Assembly (NCBI GenBank): GCA_018604165.1
Contig: CP075895.1
Span: 2,041,001 to 2,105,000 of the forward strand
Reading direction: 5' to 3'
From: Chitinophagaceae bacterium LGM1
GTDB taxonomy: Bacteria > Bacteroidota > Bacteroidia > Chitinophagales > Chitinophagaceae
Length of the DNA: 64,000 bases
In this document: positions 5,893 to 13,935 of the stretch, piece after piece
Layout: every line of letters starts with the position of its first letter
Numbering within the stretch: position 1 is the stretch's first letter
Translations under genes and position numbers: made by a program
The notes under the pieces: model-generated
Database searches by the model: none
What the model was told of the DNA's origin: nothing
Seen by the model: only the letters and a program-made list of their open reading frames with translations

Positions 5893-5900
5893 TAACTTTG
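5893..5900 (+). promoter_or_regulatory. -7 element (TAACTTTG) of the cysteine desulfurase gene
   Basis: TAACTTTG fits TAnnTTTG and lies 9 bases before the ATG at 5910, predicting a very short leader. The TTG inside it is in frame with the gene and could be mistaken for a start. Confidence 0.55.
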
Positions 5901-5909
5901 CAGCCTGAT

Positions 5910-7043
5910 ATGCAACGGATATATTTTGATAATGCAGCTACCACTGCATTAGATACACAGGTACTGGACGCGATGATGCCATATATGACGGAGAAATTCG
6001 GCAACCCCTCATCTATCTATTCATACGGTAGGGAAACTAAGATGGCTATTGAAAGCGCCCGAAAATCTGTTGCTAAGATATTACATGCCAACCCCGGTGA
6101 AATATTCTTTACATCGGGCGGTACGGAAAGCAGCAATACAGCCATACACGCATCTGTAAGAGATTTGGGATGCACCCGCATCATATCATCTGCCATAGAA
6201 CACCACGCTACCCTGCATACGGTAGAATACATCCATAAAACAGGACAAGCAAAGCTCGACTTTGTAAACCTGACGGCTAACGGACATATAGACCTGCAAC
6301 ATCTGGAAGTATTATTATCTGGCAGTAGCGATAAAACACTCGTAACGCTGATGCATGCCAATAATGAGATTGGCAACCTGCTGGATGTAAAAGCAGTAGG
6401 CGAATTGTGCCGTAAGTACAACGCCATTTTCCATTGCGATATGGTACAGACCATAGGCCACTACCCCATCAACCTGCACGATATATATATACACTTTGCC
6501 AGTTCGGCAGGGCACAAGTTTCATGGGCCAAAGGGAGTAGGCATATTGTATGTAAATGAAGATATTAAAATACAACCCATGCTCAACGGCGGCTCTCAAG
6601 AGCGCAATATGCGTGCAGGTACAGAAAACCTATATGGTATTGTAGGCTATGCAAAAGCACTGGAAATAGCTACAGAACGATACGAGCAAGACAGCCAATA
6701 CATGCAAGGCCTGAAAAACTACATGATAAACAAGTTGCAAGCTACCTTCCCAAACATATTGCTGAATGGAGATGTACAAGGCAATAGCCTCTATACTGTA
6801 TTAAATGTTGGCTTCCCGCTTACAGACAAGGCTGATATGCTGCTCTTTAATCTGGATATGGCAGGTATATGCGTAAGCGGCGGTAGTGCTTGCAGTAGTG
6901 GTGCCAACAGCATCAGCCATGTAATACAGGCACTCTACCCCGAAAAAGCAGCTACTGTTGTACCCATTCGCTTTTCTTTTTCAAGGCATAATACTGAGGC
7001 AGAGATTGACTTTGTAGTTGATAAGTTGCAAGGCATGATATAG
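5910..7043 (+). CDS. Cysteine desulfurase (NifS/IscS family)
   Basis: 377 residues from ATG 5910 (MQRIYFDNAATTALD). PLP-binding Lys203 sits in SSAGHKFHGPKG, the PLP-ring His in 'AIEHHATLH', and the catalytic Cys328 in GGSACSSG, the mobile-loop arrangement of IscS/NifS (group I) enzymes. It converts cysteine to alanine and passes persulfide sulfur to Fe-S scaffolds or tRNA thiolation. No isc or suf genes are adjacent, so it acts as a stand-alone gene here. In-frame sequence upstream of the ATG is part of the promoter and is not counted. Confidence 0.92.
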   Translation: MQRIYFDNAATTALDTQVLDAMMPYMTEKFGNPSSIYSYGRETKMAIESARKSVAKILHANPGEIFFTSGGTESSNTAIHASVRDLGCTRIISSAIEHHATLHTVEYIHKTGQAKLDFVNLTANGHIDLQHLEVLLSGSSDKTLVTLMHANNEIGNLLDVKAVGELCRKYNAIFHCDMVQTIGHYPINLHDIYIHFASSAGHKFHGPKGVGILYVNEDIKIQPMLNGGSQERNMRAGTENLYGIVGYAKALEIATERYEQDSQYMQGLKNYMINKLQATFPNILLNGDVQGNSLYTVLNVGFPLTDKADMLLFNLDMAGICVSGGSACSSGANSISHVIQALYPEKAATVVPIRFSFSRHNTEAEIDFVVDKLQGMI

Positions 7044-7412: not shown

Positions 7413-7634
7413 ATGAAAATCTTCCTTTCAGCCAGTATTATCCTGCTTACCATCATGCTGGTGTTACCATCCGTTGCCGAGGCACACTATTCTTACTGTA
7501 CAAGCACCAGGTGTTATTGCGGTGGTGGTTATGCCGTGCCGTTAGACGGTGGTTTGAGCCTTTTAGCCGTTGCTGGTGTAGGTTATGGTGTTAGCCGGTA
7601 TAGGGCAAAAAAGAGAGAAAACAAAGGCAAATAA
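7413..7634 (+). CDS. Mini exosortase substrate with PID-CTERM-like sorting signal (1)
   Basis: 73 residues. Signal peptide about 1-24 (MKIFLSASIILLTIMLVLPS...AEA), then an 18-residue core H-Y-S-Y-C-TSTR-C-Y-C-GGG-YAV, then the sorting signal: PLDGG motif, a hydrophobic helix (LSLLAVAGVGYGV) and a basic tail (RYRAKKRENKGK). This tripartite ending is what exosortases recognise; the P-[IL]-D-G-G form is, from memory, what family databases call PID-CTERM in Bacteroidota. After processing, only a peptide with three cysteines would remain. It precedes the exosortase gene by less than 0.4 kb and has its own promoter. The TTT/GTG-extended start overlaps the promoter and is rejected. Function unknown; a surface peptide or a structural anchor are both possible. 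Confidence 0.85.
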   Translation: MKIFLSASIILLTIMLVLPSVAEAHYSYCTSTRCYCGGGYAVPLDGGLSLLAVAGVGYGVSRYRAKKRENKGK

Positions 7635-7687
7635 GCGTTCGGCACAGTTTATGTAATGTAAACTGCTGGTTAATAAGAGGTATTTTC

Positions 7688-7718
7688 TTGCCTGATATGC
7701 AAGAAAAAGGGATATTTG
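7688..7718 (+). promoter_or_regulatory. Promoter of the second sorting-substrate gene
   Basis: TTG (7688-7690), 20-base spacer, GATATTTG (7711-7718) followed by TGCC. It shares ATATTTGTGC and the spacer with the promoter at 7356-7386. Confidence 0.5.
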
Positions 7719-7752
7719 TGCCTATCCTCGAAAAATAAAAAACGACGCTCGT

Positions 7753-7980
7753 ATGAAAAAAGTCCTCTATTCTGTTACGGCATTGTTGCTGGTAGCCATG
7801 CTGGTACTGCCTTTGAGCAGTTTTGCCCACACTACATGGTGCAATACTAAATATGGCTGGAGTTGTAACTGTGGCGGCGGTGGCTACGCTGTTCCGCTGG
7901 AAGGTGCAGCAGCTTTATTGATTGCCGGTGCTGCCGGTCTAGGCATCAAAAGGTTCAGAAGCAACAAAAAAAGCAAATAG
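7753..7980 (+). CDS. Mini exosortase substrate with PID-CTERM-like sorting signal (2)
   Basis: 75 residues. Signal peptide about 1-25 (MKKVLYSVTALLLVAMLVLP...SFA), a 22-residue core H-TT-W-C-NTKYGWS-C-N-C-GGGG-YAV, and a sorting signal with PLEGA, the helix ALLIAGAAGLGI and a basic tail KRFRSNKKSK. It is clearly paralogous to the gene at 7413: both cores share H-x-x-aromatic-Cys, then C-x-C-G(3-4)-YAVPL, although signal peptides and tails differ. The canonical PxDGG has become PLEGA. It lies 30 bases upstream of the exosortase start, so probably transcribed with it from its own promoter and from any read-through. Confidence 0.87.
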   Translation: MKKVLYSVTALLLVAMLVLPLSSFAHTTWCNTKYGWSCNCGGGGYAVPLEGAAALLIAGAAGLGIKRFRSNKKSK

Positions 7981-8010
7981 ACATAGCTTTATACATACTG
8001 CAGATAAGAG

Positions 8011-8538
8011 ATGAGTACCGAAACCAATAGCATTGCAGGTAAAATACTCCCTGCTAATATCAGACCTATCCTCATTAGGGGTATATTATTGGTTGTAGGG
8101 TGGACTTTACTATATAAATACGTTTTAGCACCTGCAGGCATACCAGACAATCAGTTGAGTAAACTGGTACAGATTGGTACTGCCGAATTGCTATCTTGGT
8201 TTTACCCCAACGTTACCCAAACAGGCACAGTAGTATTGATAGATGGCATACCGTCTGTAAGCATCGGGCATCAATGCAACGGGCTGGAACTGAACGCCTT
8301 GTATGTTGGTTTTATGTTATGTTTCCCCAGTAGCTTTAAGAAGATATTGATATATACTATCATAGGCTTTACAGCCATATACCTGCTGAATGTGGTACGC
8401 TGTGCTGTACTGGCAGTTATGTACATAAACCACAACGACCTGACCGATTTTGCCCACCACTATGCTTTCAAATTAGTGATATACGCTGTAGTGTTTTATG
8501 GCTGGGTGCTTTACTCTAAAAAACCTGCCTCAAAATGA
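8011..8538 (+). CDS. xrtX: Exosortase (XrtX-like), transpeptidase/cysteine protease of the sorting system
   Basis: 175 residues, polytopic, with the exosortase/archaeosortase catalytic set: Cys89 in IGHQCNGLELNA, Arg130 in LNVVRCAVLA, and His149/His150 in FAHHYAFKLV. The four or five hydrophobic helices place these at the outer face of the inner membrane. The enzyme cleaves at the sorting motif of its substrates and is presumed to join them to an acceptor. It is much shorter than proteobacterial EpsH (about 300 residues), like other Bacteroidota exosortases. Two substrate genes lie directly upstream, the partner membrane protein overlaps its stop by 4 bases, and no polysaccharide genes are adjacent. 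The XrtX subclass is assigned from context and recollection; exosortase itself is firm. Confidence 0.9.
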   Translation: MSTETNSIAGKILPANIRPILIRGILLVVGWTLLYKYVLAPAGIPDNQLSKLVQIGTAELLSWFYPNVTQTGTVVLIDGIPSVSIGHQCNGLELNALYVGFMLCFPSSFKKILIYTIIGFTAIYLLNVVRCAVLAVMYINHNDLTDFAHHYAFKLVIYAVVFYGWVLYSKKPASK

Positions 8539-8942
8539 AAACGAAGAACCGCATCATATTTTGGTTGGTTTTCATCATCGTTTCGACACTCTGTTGGATT
8601 GATTATCAATACTTTACAGAGGGACATGCACACCTTATCACCCCATTACAAAGGCAAATAGGGCATATTGTGGTATTGGCTGTAATTGCCCCTGTTGGCT
8701 ACATAGGTTGGGGATATTATGGTGTAAAGTGGATACAGAAACTATGGTTAGTTTCGCATGTGGCAACCATTGGTATTATCGGTGCTATAGGGCTTGTACA
8801 ATGGAAGACAGGTGTATTCGGTACTACCTTTCTCGACCAGGTAAGCAGCCTGCGCCTGTTCTTTACCAGCCCGCTACCCTATTTCATGCTCTACATCATA
8901 CACAAAGCCGTGTACACACAACAACAACATGGCAATAAATAA
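8535..8942 (+). CDS. Exosortase-associated four-helix membrane protein (XrtX-associated type)
   Basis: 135 residues with about four transmembrane helices (8-24, 40-62, 68-90, 100-125) and no recognisable catalytic motif. Its ATG overlaps the exosortase TGA (ATGA at 8535-8538), which implies translational coupling and a shared complex. I recall an 'XrtX-associated membrane protein' family occurring in exactly this position in Bacteroidota. It may hold the exosortase, present the acceptor or help export. A conserved 'FTSPLPYFMLYII' stretch sits near the C-terminus. The operon probably ends here, since a strong rpsL promoter begins 12 bases after the stop. Confidence 0.75.
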   Translation: MKTKNRIIFWLVFIIVSTLCWIDYQYFTEGHAHLITPLQRQIGHIVVLAVIAPVGYIGWGYYGVKWIQKLWLVSHVATIGIIGAIGLVQWKTGVFGTTFLDQVSSLRLFFTSPLPYFMLYIIHKAVYTQQQHGNK

Positions 8943-10205: not shown

Positions 10206-10412
10206 TTAAGCCTTTGCTTTAGCAGGTTTGTTCTTCATATACATGCGTACACCATACGCTACACCAGCCAGTGCCAGTAAACTCATGCCACCATCCAGCG
10301 GGGCTGCATACGGCTCTACATCGGGGTCAAAGCCAGGGCCGAATGCCGAAGCCTGTACACTGCTCAACACCATCACTACTACGAATACTAATAATACTTG
10401 TAAGTTTTTCAT
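10206..10412 (-). CDS. Mini exosortase substrate with PID-CTERM-like sorting signal (3)
   Basis: 68 residues. Signal peptide about 1-23 (MKNLQVLLVFVVVMVLSS...ASA), a short acidic, cysteine-free core (FGPGFDPDVEPYAA), then PLDGG, hydrophobic MSLLALAGVAYGV and a basic tail (RMYMKNKPAKAKA). The sorting signal is nearly the same as in the substrate at 7413, so it should be processed by the same exosortase, 1.7 kb away across rpsL-rpsG. It is monocistronic, on the opposite strand, with its own terminator. The different core suggests that the sorting signal, not the core, is the shared feature of the set. Confidence 0.82.
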   Translation of the reverse strand: MKNLQVLLVFVVVMVLSSVQASAFGPGFDPDVEPYAAPLDGGMSLLALAGVAYGVRMYMKNKPAKAKA

Positions 10413-10595: not shown

Positions 10596-13500
10596 TTATT
10601 GTTTTATCAGTTTCTCTGTCTTGGTTGTTTTACCATCTGTTACCTCTACCATATACATACCTGTTTGCAGGGCTTGTATCGGCAGTGCTACTTCACCATT
10701 GCTTTTAGCTTTCACTTCTTGCTTAGCTATTACAGCACCCATGATGTTGGTAATAACCACTTGCAGTGTTTTACTCTCAGCACCTGCGTAGTGTAGTTTA
10801 GCTTCGGTAGTTGCAGGGTTTGGTACTAATTTCACTTCCAGCTTAGTAGCTTCTTTTGCTTTGGTAGTAGTTTGTGCTACGTTGGTAGTAGGGTTGTTTG
10901 GTTTAGTAGTAGCCTTACCTTGCATTACCAGTTCAAAACGGTTAATACCAGTAGAGGCAGTATCAGTATTTACTTCAAACCAATACTCAAAGCCCGGTAC
11001 TATTTCTTCCATCGTGTTTGTGTATTTATCGCGCAGATAGATGCGTGTACCCAATACCATATTGTATTCGCCCAATGTGAAGCGGAATTTCTTATTCGCA
11101 TTTGTATGCGCGGCAGGTACGTAGATGCCTAAACGCACTACCTGACTGTCTGTATGCTTGCGGCAATCAATAGCCATTAGCGAGTCGTCTGTACCAATGG
11201 TATAGATGCTAACATCGGGGTTAGCCATTTTCAGGCCGTCGTTGTATTCAAATGTGCCTTTAGCTGTATCGTCAAACAGCATCAGCATTTTATCCCAGAA
11301 TATGGTGCTGTCTTCTATCTTCAGTTCTACCTGTGCAGGAGCAGCAGCAGTAGATTTCAATATACCCATAGCCCCAGATGTTGCTTTACAAGATTCAGGG
11401 AATGTCATAGTACCGTTTGTCAGTACCGTCGTTACAAAAGATGCACCTGCTGGTATGATGATGCTACTCAACAATGGTATGCTGGTATAGCCACCACGTG
11501 TACCCTGGTTTGAGTTCCATACGATGATGTTGGCACCCACGCTGGTACGTGTTGTCAGCAACAGGTTGATGGGGCTTTGATATGGGTTGCCTATCAGTAC
11601 AAATGGTGTACCGCTTCCTTTAGTAAGGTTTACCGTTACATCACCCTGATTCGGCGTACCTGTCATGTCGAGCGTTACGGCGTTGGGTGTATATGCACCT
11701 GCATAGATGCCTTGCCCTTTAGAGCCACGTACCAATACACGTACTGCTTCGCACTTGTCCCAACTGTTAGCACCTGTACCGTTTGTGCTGGTAAATGCTG
11801 TCCAACCCACGTCATTAACCGTAGAGCCATTACCCGTAAGCGGATTGTACCAGAAAGCAGATGATGGGTTGCCCGGCTGGAAATCGAAGCCATTGGTAGC
11901 ACCACCTGTACCCGTAATGTCTATATCATCAGTCAGTTGGCTAAGTCCTATTGCGCTTGAAAAAGGATGGCAGATGAAACGGAAAGCCCTGCGGCCACCG
12001 GGTATGTATGTTTCAGTAGTTACGTTACCAACTATATAGCCACCTGTAGACCTGCCTTGTTTTATGTAAGCAGTACCCGAACTACTCGATTTCAATGTAA
12101 GATTGCCATTAGATGTCAGCGTGCTGTTACCTTTTATTTCTATACTACCCCAAGATATAATGTCTAATGCTGTACCCAATGTAGCTGTAGCAGTAGATGT
12201 TGAGCCCGTACCCAATACCAGCGACTCTAACGTACGGCTGCCGTTTGTAAAGTTGAGCGTGCCTGCTGTACCTGTTACTGTCAGCTTAGCATTCTGTCCG
12301 CCTGTTATAGTACCGCTACCTGTTACTGCACCACCTAATATCAATGTTGAGTTTTGCAGTGATATAGCACCTGCGTTATCAACCGCGCCCGAAATGGTAA
12401 AGTCTGTACTTGAACCCGTTAGTGTAACCAAGCCACCACTGTATATTTTTAAAGAGGCTACTGTTACGTCACTTGATATAAGCGGGTCGTTCGATTTATC
12501 AACTATGTGTACTTCTTCTGTGCTGATAGGTACTGATGCGAAAAACCAGTTACTGGCTGTATGCCAGTCTGTACTCGTTGCACCCGTCCAGGTATTGCAC
12601 AGGTTTACATAACGCAGATCGTCGTTTGTATCATCGTGGTAAGATATAGCAGGTGCACCGTTTACAAACTGCAAACAAGCATACTCGCCCACATCACCTG
12701 TTGTTTCAAAAGTAGCAGGATTGCCCCATGTAGTACCAGATGTATTGGTAGCACGTATATACTTCACGTCGTTGTTTATATTATCGTAGTAGGCTATGGC
12801 AGGGTTGCCATCTATTATTTTCAGAGAAGTGTACATACCCACATCGCCGTTTTGGTCTAACGCTACTGATGCACCCCATGTAGTACCGCTAACATCAGTT
12901 GCACGCGCAAAACGCAAATCGTCATTCGTATCGTCGTAGAAAGAAATAGCAGGGTTGCCGTTTACTATAGCCATAGAGCAGTAAAGCCCTACTGTGTTAG
13001 ACGACTGTACCACTACCGGTGAACCCCACGTGCTGCCAGTATTGTTAGTAGCACGTACATACTCCATATCGCCATTGCTTACATCATAATATGCTATGGC
13101 AGGGTTGCCGTTTACTATCTGCATAGATGCAAACCAACCAACTGTACCCGAAGATTGTACAACAACAGGTGTACCCCATGTGCTGCCTGTAGTATTGGTA
13201 GCGCGTACAAATTCTAAATCATCATTACTCTCATCAAAATATGCTATGGCAGGGTTGCCGTTTACTACTACCAGTGATGTGTATTTACCAACATCGCCAC
13301 TTGATGTTACCGTAACAGGTGTACCCCATGTGCTGCCGTTCGCATCGTTGGCACGTACATACATCAGGTTGCCATTGGTTTGGTCGTAGTAAGAGATAGC
13401 CGGGTTGCCACTTACAATAGCCATAGAGGTAAACTCACCCACAAAGTTGGAAGACTGTATTGTTATGGGGCTACTCCATGAAGAACCGGCTGCATTCGTA

Positions 13501-13697
13501 GCACGGATGTATTTCAGGTCACCTGCTGTTTCGTCGAAGTAAGACATGGCAGGATTGCCGTTTACAATAATCAGCGAAGATGATTCACCCACCATGTTGC
13601 CGCTGTTATCTAATAGCTGCGGGGTGTTCCAGTTTTGGGCAATAGACTGGCTGACTGTGCCAATGATTGCCATTACGAGGAAAAGATACTTTTTCAT
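10596..13697 (-). CDS. T9SS-exported protein with a seven-repeat propeller and a beta-helix-like region
   Basis: About 1033 residues from the ATG at 13697 (MKKYLFLVMAIIGTVSQSIAQ, a clear signal peptide; upstream in-frame codons lack one). Residues about 22-370 hold seven repeats of about 49 residues with the core NGNPAI[SA]YYD...DL.YVRAT..GSTWG.P. The N-terminal NWNTPQLLDNSGN supplies the W-x-x-P strand missing from the last repeat, which suggests velcro closure of a seven-bladed propeller. Then comes a Gly/Ser/Thr-rich region resembling a right-handed beta-helix, and a globular part with 'SFTT..NGTMTFP'. The last 80 residues (LVPNPATTEAKLHY...KTEKLIKQ) are a type A T9SS sorting domain. It is probably an adhesin-like or binding surface protein; ligand unknown. 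Confidence 0.85.
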   Translation of the reverse strand: MKKYLFLVMAIIGTVSQSIAQNWNTPQLLDNSGNMVGESSSLIIVNGNPAMSYFDETAGDLKYIRATNAAGSSWSSPITIQSSNFVGEFTSMAIVSGNPAISYYDQTNGNLMYVRANDANGSTWGTPVTVTSSGDVGKYTSLVVVNGNPAIAYFDESNDDLEFVRATNTTGSTWGTPVVVQSSGTVGWFASMQIVNGNPAIAYYDVSNGDMEYVRATNNTGSTWGSPVVVQSSNTVGLYCSMAIVNGNPAISFYDDTNDDLRFARATDVSGTTWGASVALDQNGDVGMYTSLKIIDGNPAIAYYDNINNDVKYIRATNTSGTTWGNPATFETTGDVGEYACLQFVNGAPAISYHDDTNDDLRYVNLCNTWTGATSTDWHTASNWFFASVPISTEEVHIVDKSNDPLISSDVTVASLKIYSGGLVTLTGSSTDFTISGAVDNAGAISLQNSTLILGGAVTGSGTITGGQNAKLTVTGTAGTLNFTNGSRTLESLVLGTGSTSTATATLGTALDIISWGSIEIKGNSTLTSNGNLTLKSSSSGTAYIKQGRSTGGYIVGNVTTETYIPGGRRAFRFICHPFSSAIGLSQLTDDIDITGTGGATNGFDFQPGNPSSAFWYNPLTGNGSTVNDVGWTAFTSTNGTGANSWDKCEAVRVLVRGSKGQGIYAGAYTPNAVTLDMTGTPNQGDVTVNLTKGSGTPFVLIGNPYQSPINLLLTTRTSVGANIIVWNSNQGTRGGYTSIPLLSSIIIPAGASFVTTVLTNGTMTFPESCKATSGAMGILKSTAAAPAQVELKIEDSTIFWDKMLMLFDDTAKGTFEYNDGLKMANPDVSIYTIGTDDSLMAIDCRKHTDSQVVRLGIYVPAAHTNANKKFRFTLGEYNMVLGTRIYLRDKYTNTMEEIVPGFEYWFEVNTDTASTGINRFELVMQGKATTKPNNPTTNVAQTTTKAKEATKLEVKLVPNPATTEAKLHYAGAESKTLQVVITNIMGAVIAKQEVKAKSNGEVALPIQALQTGMYMVEVTDGKTTKTEKLIKQ

Positions 13698-13834
13698 GTT
13701 TGTACTGTTTTGATCGTTTTTCATTTTATGAATACAGCACGAATGTAGCCTCAGGTATATAATACATTCAAAAAATACAGCTTCGTTAACGCCCGTTTTG
13801 CAAGTGGTTAACGGGTGATTAACAAGTTGCGCCA

Positions 13835-13935
13835 ACCCCTAAATCCCTGCCTGCGGCAGGCAGGCCCTTAAGGGGACTTTTTTTGTTGTAGTACCCCTAA
13901 TCCCCCATGCAGGGGACTTTCCCTTAGGTTTTTAT
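13835..13935. repeat. Hairpin-rich intergenic repeat
   Basis: The stretch contains a 9-bp stem with a 1-base loop (13846-13864, CCTGCCTGC G GCAGGCAGG), the palindrome CCCTTAAGGG (13865-13874), and two diverged copies of an 'AcCCCTAAtcCC...GGGGACTTT' unit (13835-13880 and 13892-13921). Such units are dispersed in Bacteroidota genomes. Nothing codes here. Confidence 0.5.

Follow-up and report, generated by a model that had tools for sequence, protein, structure and literature searches.

An XrtX-like exosortase locus of Bacteroidota with peptide-sized candidate substrates and type IX secretion neighbors

An exosortase locus in a member of the Chitinophagaceae includes genes whose products consist of a signal peptide, a very short core, and a C-terminal sorting signal. 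The locus lies in a 64,000-nucleotide stretch of DNA from Chitinophagaceae bacterium LGM1 (contig CP075895.1, positions 2,041,001 to 2,105,000), which is called the window here and whose numbering is used for all features described below. On balance, we consider it probable that this locus unites an XrtX-like exosortase and its membrane partner with dedicated, peptide-sized substrates, and that it makes short, cell-bound peptides that support growth on surfaces, possibly together with adhesins sorted by the type IX secretion system (T9SS). The kind of system is known, as PID-CTERM and XrtX already exist as NCBIfam models. However widespread this sorting system appears to be, it seems little studied, and its enzyme appears to handle only tiny proteins the size of peptides. 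Our literature searches found no paper that names PID-CTERM, or exosortase together with XrtX, and the descriptions of the NCBI models may mention the short length. The links proposed herein are also absent from the available portions of four relevant publications (PMC10936215, PMC7468200, PMC1569441, and PMC12188702).

Genes at the locus

Two adjacent tiny genes open the locus. The first (7413..7634, + strand) encodes a PID-CTERM protein of 73 amino acids and the second (7753..7980, +) a PID-CTERM-like protein of 75 amino acids, and the open reading frames are as an earlier note on this DNA had described them. Each product carries a signal peptide, a Cys-containing core of about 18 or 22 residues, the motif PLDGG or PLEGA, a hydrophobic stretch, and a tail rich in Lys and Arg, where signal peptides and cleavage sites were called by a simple scripted rule and no predictor. 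A gap of 118 bp separates the two tiny genes, and another of 30 bp separates the second from the gene for the XrtX-like exosortase (8011..8538, +; 175 amino acids). The exosortase gene in turn overlaps by 4 bp the gene for an associated membrane partner (8535..8942, +; 135 amino acids).

Farther along, a third tiny PID-CTERM protein of 68 amino acids, which has no Cys, is encoded on the opposite strand (10206..10412, −). Situated 184 bp upstream of it, on the same strand, is the gene for a large T9SS type A-sorted protein (10596..13835, −; up to 1079 amino acids, with an uncertain start) that scores above the cut-offs of both TIGR04183 and PF18962. On the other side of the locus lies a gene for a NifS/IscS-like cysteine desulfurase (5898..7043, +), which recurs in 11 of 81 loci under comparison. 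We regard this enzyme as a lineage-specific neighbor and do not think that it is part of the exosortase system.

The three tiny genes evolve as proteins rather than as chance open reading frames, because nonsynonymous differences are far rarer than synonymous ones. In eight comparisons with close relatives (L111 to L115; locus and genome handles are ours), pS ranges from 0.54 to 0.87 and pN from 0.09 to 0.22, and for tiny protein 1 versus its L112 counterpart dN is 0.26 and dS is 1.21. Tiny protein 2 has orthologs in L111 to L115 with pN well below pS, and tiny protein 3 is conserved in L111 and L112.

The cores themselves vary widely. Among 108 distinct proteins from the loci, the rule-based cleavage site gives a median core length of 15 residues (range 0 to 138), with 92 cores of 30 residues or fewer and with Gly, Pro, Asp, and Asn as the commonest residues. 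It had been suggested that the processed product is a three-cysteine peptide. This description holds for tiny proteins 1 and 2 and their counterparts in L111 to L115, whose cores by the same rule start with His and keep at least three Cys residues, with the qualification that the script placed the site of tiny protein 1 in the window two residues before the His. It fails as a general rule, as any Cys at all occurs in 22 of the 108 cores and three or more in 13, and 11 of those 13 come from the window and L111 to L115. Judging from these sequences, the three-cysteine core is a lineage-specific trait. In some signal proteins (from L117, L118, L119, and L128), the core is long, of low complexity, and rich in Asn, Asp, and Gly; these cores include the 138-residue maximum.

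The exosortase and its partner

The window enzyme is a member of the exosortase/archaeosortase superfamily. It scores 51.6 bits against the TIGR04178 signature (cut-off 23), and Cys89, Arg130, and His149 are invariant in an alignment of 22 sequences. His150, which had been pointed out along with these three, is at least 90% conserved in the same alignment. Against the XrtX model (NF046081) the enzyme reaches 130.2 bits, which is under the curated cut-off of 170 bits. Because that cut-off is exceeded in none of the 147 family genomes either, we call the enzyme XrtX-like. It also lies under the cut-offs for XrtF (TIGR04128; 57.6 versus 90 bits) and for the Pfam family Exosortase_EpsH (PF09721; 24.9 bits versus a gathering score of 25.7).

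AlphaFold2 models of the exosortase and of the partner have mean pLDDT values of 90 and 95, respectively. Searches of the PDB with the two models gave no match with E ≤ 0.001, and a search of PDB sequences with the exosortase sequence gave none at E ≤ 1. The partner had no match listed at E ≤ 10 in NCBIfam or Pfam. Its coupling to the exosortase extends well beyond the window: a homolog is found in 76 of the 80 named exosortase loci, which are the 80 best among 149 relatives identified.

Size of the signal carriers

In the LGM1 genome (3,322,193 bp in one contig), two exosortases pass the signature cut-off, and four PID-CTERM matches have E values below 0.01. A lineage-specific signal profile, built from signals of the lineage with the genome's own four included, recovers the same four at E ≤ 4e-16, and the next best match in the whole genome is at E 0.77. 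All four lie in frames of 77 to 94 codons. The gene for the fourth protein (64 amino acids, with a core of about 7 residues) immediately precedes that for the second exosortase. The two profiles revealed no larger protein with the signal in this genome. Among weaker matches, L019 and L020 were rejected as internal to long frames, and L338 (E 0.77, in a frame of 483) was dropped.

Small size is also the rule more broadly. The PID-CTERM signal occurs in 76 of 392 phylum genomes and 50 of 147 family genomes (E ≤ 0.01), and median open frames among the matches listed are 81.5 codons for the phylum and 84 for the family. Of 300 matches listed (150 phylum and 150 family, 8 of them common to both, with lengths transcribed by hand), 298 are in frames shorter than 200 codons, one is in a frame of exactly 200, and one is in a frame of 995 (genome G166). 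Thus, the claim that the substrates are essentially only sorting signals has stood up to a proteome-wide search for other carriers with two profiles, in which the many large proteins that would speak against it did not appear.

The long frame in G166 (L328, G166:C1:2165500-2171000) encodes a membrane protein that ends in a PID-like tail. It is a genuine long protein and the one clearly large carrier among the matches listed, and we take it to be MSEP-CTERM-like.

These data bear on the idea that the tiny genes are decayed remnants of once larger substrates, and that the real targets carry a signal missed by the profiles. Tiny protein 2 would fit such decay, since its PID_CTERM score of 18.3 bits falls below the NCBIfam cut-off (NF046080, 26 bits) that tiny proteins 1 and 3 exceed with 37.6 and 36.5 bits, and the related tail on the 995-codon protein would fit as well. 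However, pN lies far below pS for the tiny genes of the window, two profiles reveal no larger carrier in the same genome, and the phylum carriers are nearly all tiny among the matches listed. We therefore judge decay to be very improbable, and the reading of the tiny proteins as dedicated substrates is retained.

Co-occurrence with the exosortase

Signal and enzyme tend to occur in the same genomes. Of the 147 family genomes, 47 have both an XrtX-like match (E ≤ 1e-6; 51 genomes) and a PID-CTERM match (E ≤ 0.01), 3 have the signal only, 4 have the exosortase only, and 93 have neither (Fisher p 6e-30, with phylogenetic dependence left in). At the level of the locus, 43 of the 80 named loci have a tiny signal gene no more than 1.5 kb from the exosortase, and 48 do when PIN/PLN-type variants are included. 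The other 32 loci, some of which are on short contigs, have no such gene nearby, and this counts against the dedicated-substrate reading.

Two sets of loci merit separate mention. Variants with P-[IL]-N occur on small proteins beside the exosortase in Mucilaginibacter and other Bacteroidota (L163, L166, L170, L176, and L185). Furthermore, a contig labelled Verrucomicrobia (JAFEGT010000109.1, L159) carries a T9SS-like tail, a tiny PID gene, an exosortase, and a partner, which reflects either mis-binning or transfer.

Rather than being substrates, the tiny proteins might remain in the membrane as permanent two-helix subunits, with a role in regulating or assembling either the exosortase or the T9SS. 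Their two hydrophobic segments with almost no soluble domain would suit such a role, as would their linkage to both the exosortase and T9SS cargo. Yet the conserved part is the motif, helix, and basic tail typical of sorting signals, and in some genomes the copies far outnumber the exosortases, as in G499 with 17 signal matches versus 4 exosortase matches. A subunit role thus seems unlikely to us, and we continue to treat the tiny proteins as probable exosortase substrates.

Association with type IX secretion cargo

Apart from the partner, the neighbors met most often when the gene neighborhoods of homologs are compared are large proteins that carry a type IX sorting tail. For 20 of 29 tiny genes of the phylum sample and 16 of 24 of the family sample, a frame with such a tail ends upstream on the same strand, at a distance of no more than 700 bp; both samples are the best-scoring loci taken one per genome (30 and 29 loci) rather than random draws, and seven of their tiny genes have no upstream frame to test. 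Among the named exosortase loci, the pairing holds for 16 of 50 tiny genes, and in the window for 1 of 2; both counts are partly circular, as the tail profile was built from those very loci and the window. Relative to the background of 47 tails among 736 frames of at least 200 amino acids in the named loci (pairs included), binomial p values for the pairing are 7e-18 (phylum), 3e-14 (family), and 5e-8 (named loci).

The curated T9SS model TIGR04183 confirms all 10 of the tails checked from the phylum and family samples. It also adds three phylum cases that the tail profile missed (next to L027, L031, and L043), which brings the phylum count to at least 23 of 29, a lower bound with L026, L038, L044, and L048 not settled by the family scan. 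In L033 and L036, the neighbors are metabolic genes instead of T9SS cargo. Among 10 tails from the exosortase loci and the window, five exceed the TIGR04183 cut-off and five fall just under it (19.6 to 22.9 versus 23). The Pfam domains of the cargo proteins vary and include laminin G, fibronectin III, lamin tail, FG-GAP, and NHL, or none at all. In one locus (L347, G191:C1:2750600-2761200), the pair of a T9SS-cargo gene and a tiny PID gene occurs twice in tandem, and the two tiny proteins are identical throughout the last 85 residues printed.

The earlier note had also proposed a role distinct from that of polysaccharide-linked exosortases. This proposal gains partial support from the finding that the only near-universal neighbor is the partner and that a recurrent one is a T9SS-sorted protein.

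XrtF and a candidate target in Flavobacterium johnsoniae

A related signal accompanies the exosortase XrtF. In 14 chosen Flavobacteria-like genomes, most weak PID matches are tiny proteins with P-I-[DN] signals; the remainder, which are internal or other matches, were set aside. A profile built from 12 such tiny proteins (A3) was searched in 149 Flavobacteriaceae genomes representing 148 genera. At E ≤ 1e-3, the variant signal is present in 94 of 103 genomes with XrtF and in 0 of 46 without it (p 9e-30, with phylogenetic dependence left in), and the counts are 90 of 99 versus 0 of 46 when the four genomes that supplied profile rows are removed. At E 0.01, they become 99 of 103 versus 1 of 46. 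Nine XrtF-bearing genomes have no match at E ≤ 1e-3, of which two have none better than E 0.1 and one has none at E ≤ 1. Moreover, a signal match lies at most 50 bp away from 9 of 12 exosortase matches below the XrtF cut-off. Within the genus Flavobacterium, 260 of 299 genomes match the variant signal (E ≤ 0.01), and no frame among the 150 matches listed is longer than 129 codons. Weak matches in L206 and L214 are Flavobacterium two-helix proteins that have a CAMC motif and no P-I-D signal, and these probably form a separate family.

We take genome G755 to be that of Flavobacterium johnsoniae: porZ measures exactly 2283 bp there, and the gene for the XrtF partner measures 447 bp when counted from the first suitable Met; both equal the complementing insert sizes given in the available part of the published study (PMC10936215). 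The single signal match of this genome at E ≤ 0.01 is an 80-codon gene (710501-710743, −) whose product of roughly 80 amino acids ends in GLPINQDLPYLIAAGLLLGTAVIYRNKIKKASI and has no match listed in NCBIfam at E ≤ 10. The flanking genes are 196 and 329 codons long. By crude gene calling, the tiny gene precedes porZ (Fjoh_0707) by 57 calls, and subtracting 56 from the porZ tag leads to Fjoh_0651; with this caller, the count from xrtF to porV is 108, versus 107 by locus tags. The complementing insert for Fjoh_0651 is 434 bp including the promoter, according to the portion of the report available (PMC10936215), and an 80-codon gene fits within it. Of the six nearest genes, only one other fits (three places on, 138 codons), with 17 bp to spare, and four genes of 96 to 98 codons located 7 to 11 places away would need a larger counting error. 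By this gene counting, the tiny signal gene is very probably Fjoh_0651.

This placement is of interest because the targets of XrtF are stated as not yet known (PMC12188702) and its substrates are left to future research in F. johnsoniae (PMC10936215), as far as the accessible parts of both papers go. According to the same portion of the latter study, deletions of xrtF (Fjoh_1448), the partner gene (Fjoh_1449), and the hypothetical gene Fjoh_0651 have identical entries in Table 2, which covers sand colonization, biofilm, zorbs, and community tests; losing any one of the three impairs biofilm formation by this soil bacterium in the same manner. The mutants lacking porU, porZ, or Fjoh_0334 share these entries as well, and therefore the Fjoh_0651 phenotype is not diagnostic. 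One candidate XrtF target can now be named, and it has already been deleted and complemented in a laboratory strain, such that the proposal is testable with existing mutants.

Proposed function

The pre-peptide would be exported by Sec, after which signal peptidase would leave a short core tethered by the C-terminal helix. The exosortase might then cut at P-L-[DE]-G and pass the core, typically of 10 to 25 residues, to a lipid or glycan acceptor. The resulting short peptide would stay bound to the cell surface, where it could support growth on surfaces, perhaps together with large T9SS-sorted adhesins. That the peptides serve such adhesins is suggested by gene position and by the resemblance in biofilm phenotype between T9SS mutants and exosortase mutants.

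A different fate for the peptide is conceivable. AgrB acting on AgrD is a model for the maturation of a peptide signal, and the exosortase could likewise be a membrane cysteine protease that trims a pre-peptide, which is then released as a diffusible signal. The size of the pre-peptides, the short cores, and the membrane cysteine enzyme all fit such a maturase, and the Cys-rich cores of the window lineage could cyclize. However, the cores are low in complexity and variable. Moreover, in a pool of about 75,000 mutants, insertions in xrtF, the partner gene, and Fjoh_0651 became depleted, as described in the available part of PMC10936215. Neighbors that make the product thus seem not to rescue them in trans, which speaks for a product that stays on the cell and against one that diffuses as a signal, with the caveat that structure on sand may limit sharing of the product in a pooled screen. 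We find release as a signal quite unlikely and favor retention of the peptide at the cell surface.

We also tentatively put forward a broader idea, which we regard as possible and less than probable: the XrtX and XrtF exosortases of Bacteroidota might make surface-bound peptides that are dedicated partners of large T9SS-sorted proteins, with each gene pair uniting one giant T9SS adhesin and one exosortase peptide, such that two unrelated C-terminal sorting systems contribute to one surface structure. Fjoh_0651 would then be the target of XrtF in F. johnsoniae.

Comparison with known systems

The closest known counterpart is the XrtX/PID-CTERM system (NF046081/NF046080), whose models are the best NCBIfam matches of the window exosortase and of all three tiny proteins, whereas the window exosortase and one of the substrate candidates score below the NCBI cut-offs. 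The EpsH/XrtA and PEP-CTERM system shares with the window the logic of the signal (motif, helix, and basic tail) and the Cys, Arg, and His residues, to judge from the available part of its description (PMC1569441). According to that same portion, PEP-CTERM proteins are diverse, low in Cys (0.4%), and number a median of eight per genome. The systems differ in that EpsH/XrtA acts alongside such diverse proteins and the carriers found here are only peptide-sized, a comparison in which the PEP-CTERM side is taken from that partial description.

The XrtF system of F. johnsoniae (TIGR04128/TIGR04127) resembles the window in having an exosortase gene followed by that of a membrane partner, both of similar size, and, as with the XrtX-like enzyme, tiny proteins with a variant signal co-occur with XrtF. 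Unlike in the window, the tiny gene of F. johnsoniae is far from xrtF. Homology between the window partner and the XrtF partners was considered and set aside, as hhalign gives weak similarity only, with a match over 35 columns at a probability of 28%.

The fourth system for comparison is T9SS type A sorting (TIGR04183), whose cargo genes often directly precede tiny PID-CTERM genes. Its sorting enzyme is PorU, which differs from an exosortase, and its C-terminal signal is also different; the link observed here is one of gene position only. Taken together, the comparison suggests that peptides can be the dedicated substrates of an exosortase and that there is a connection between exosortases and type IX secretion.
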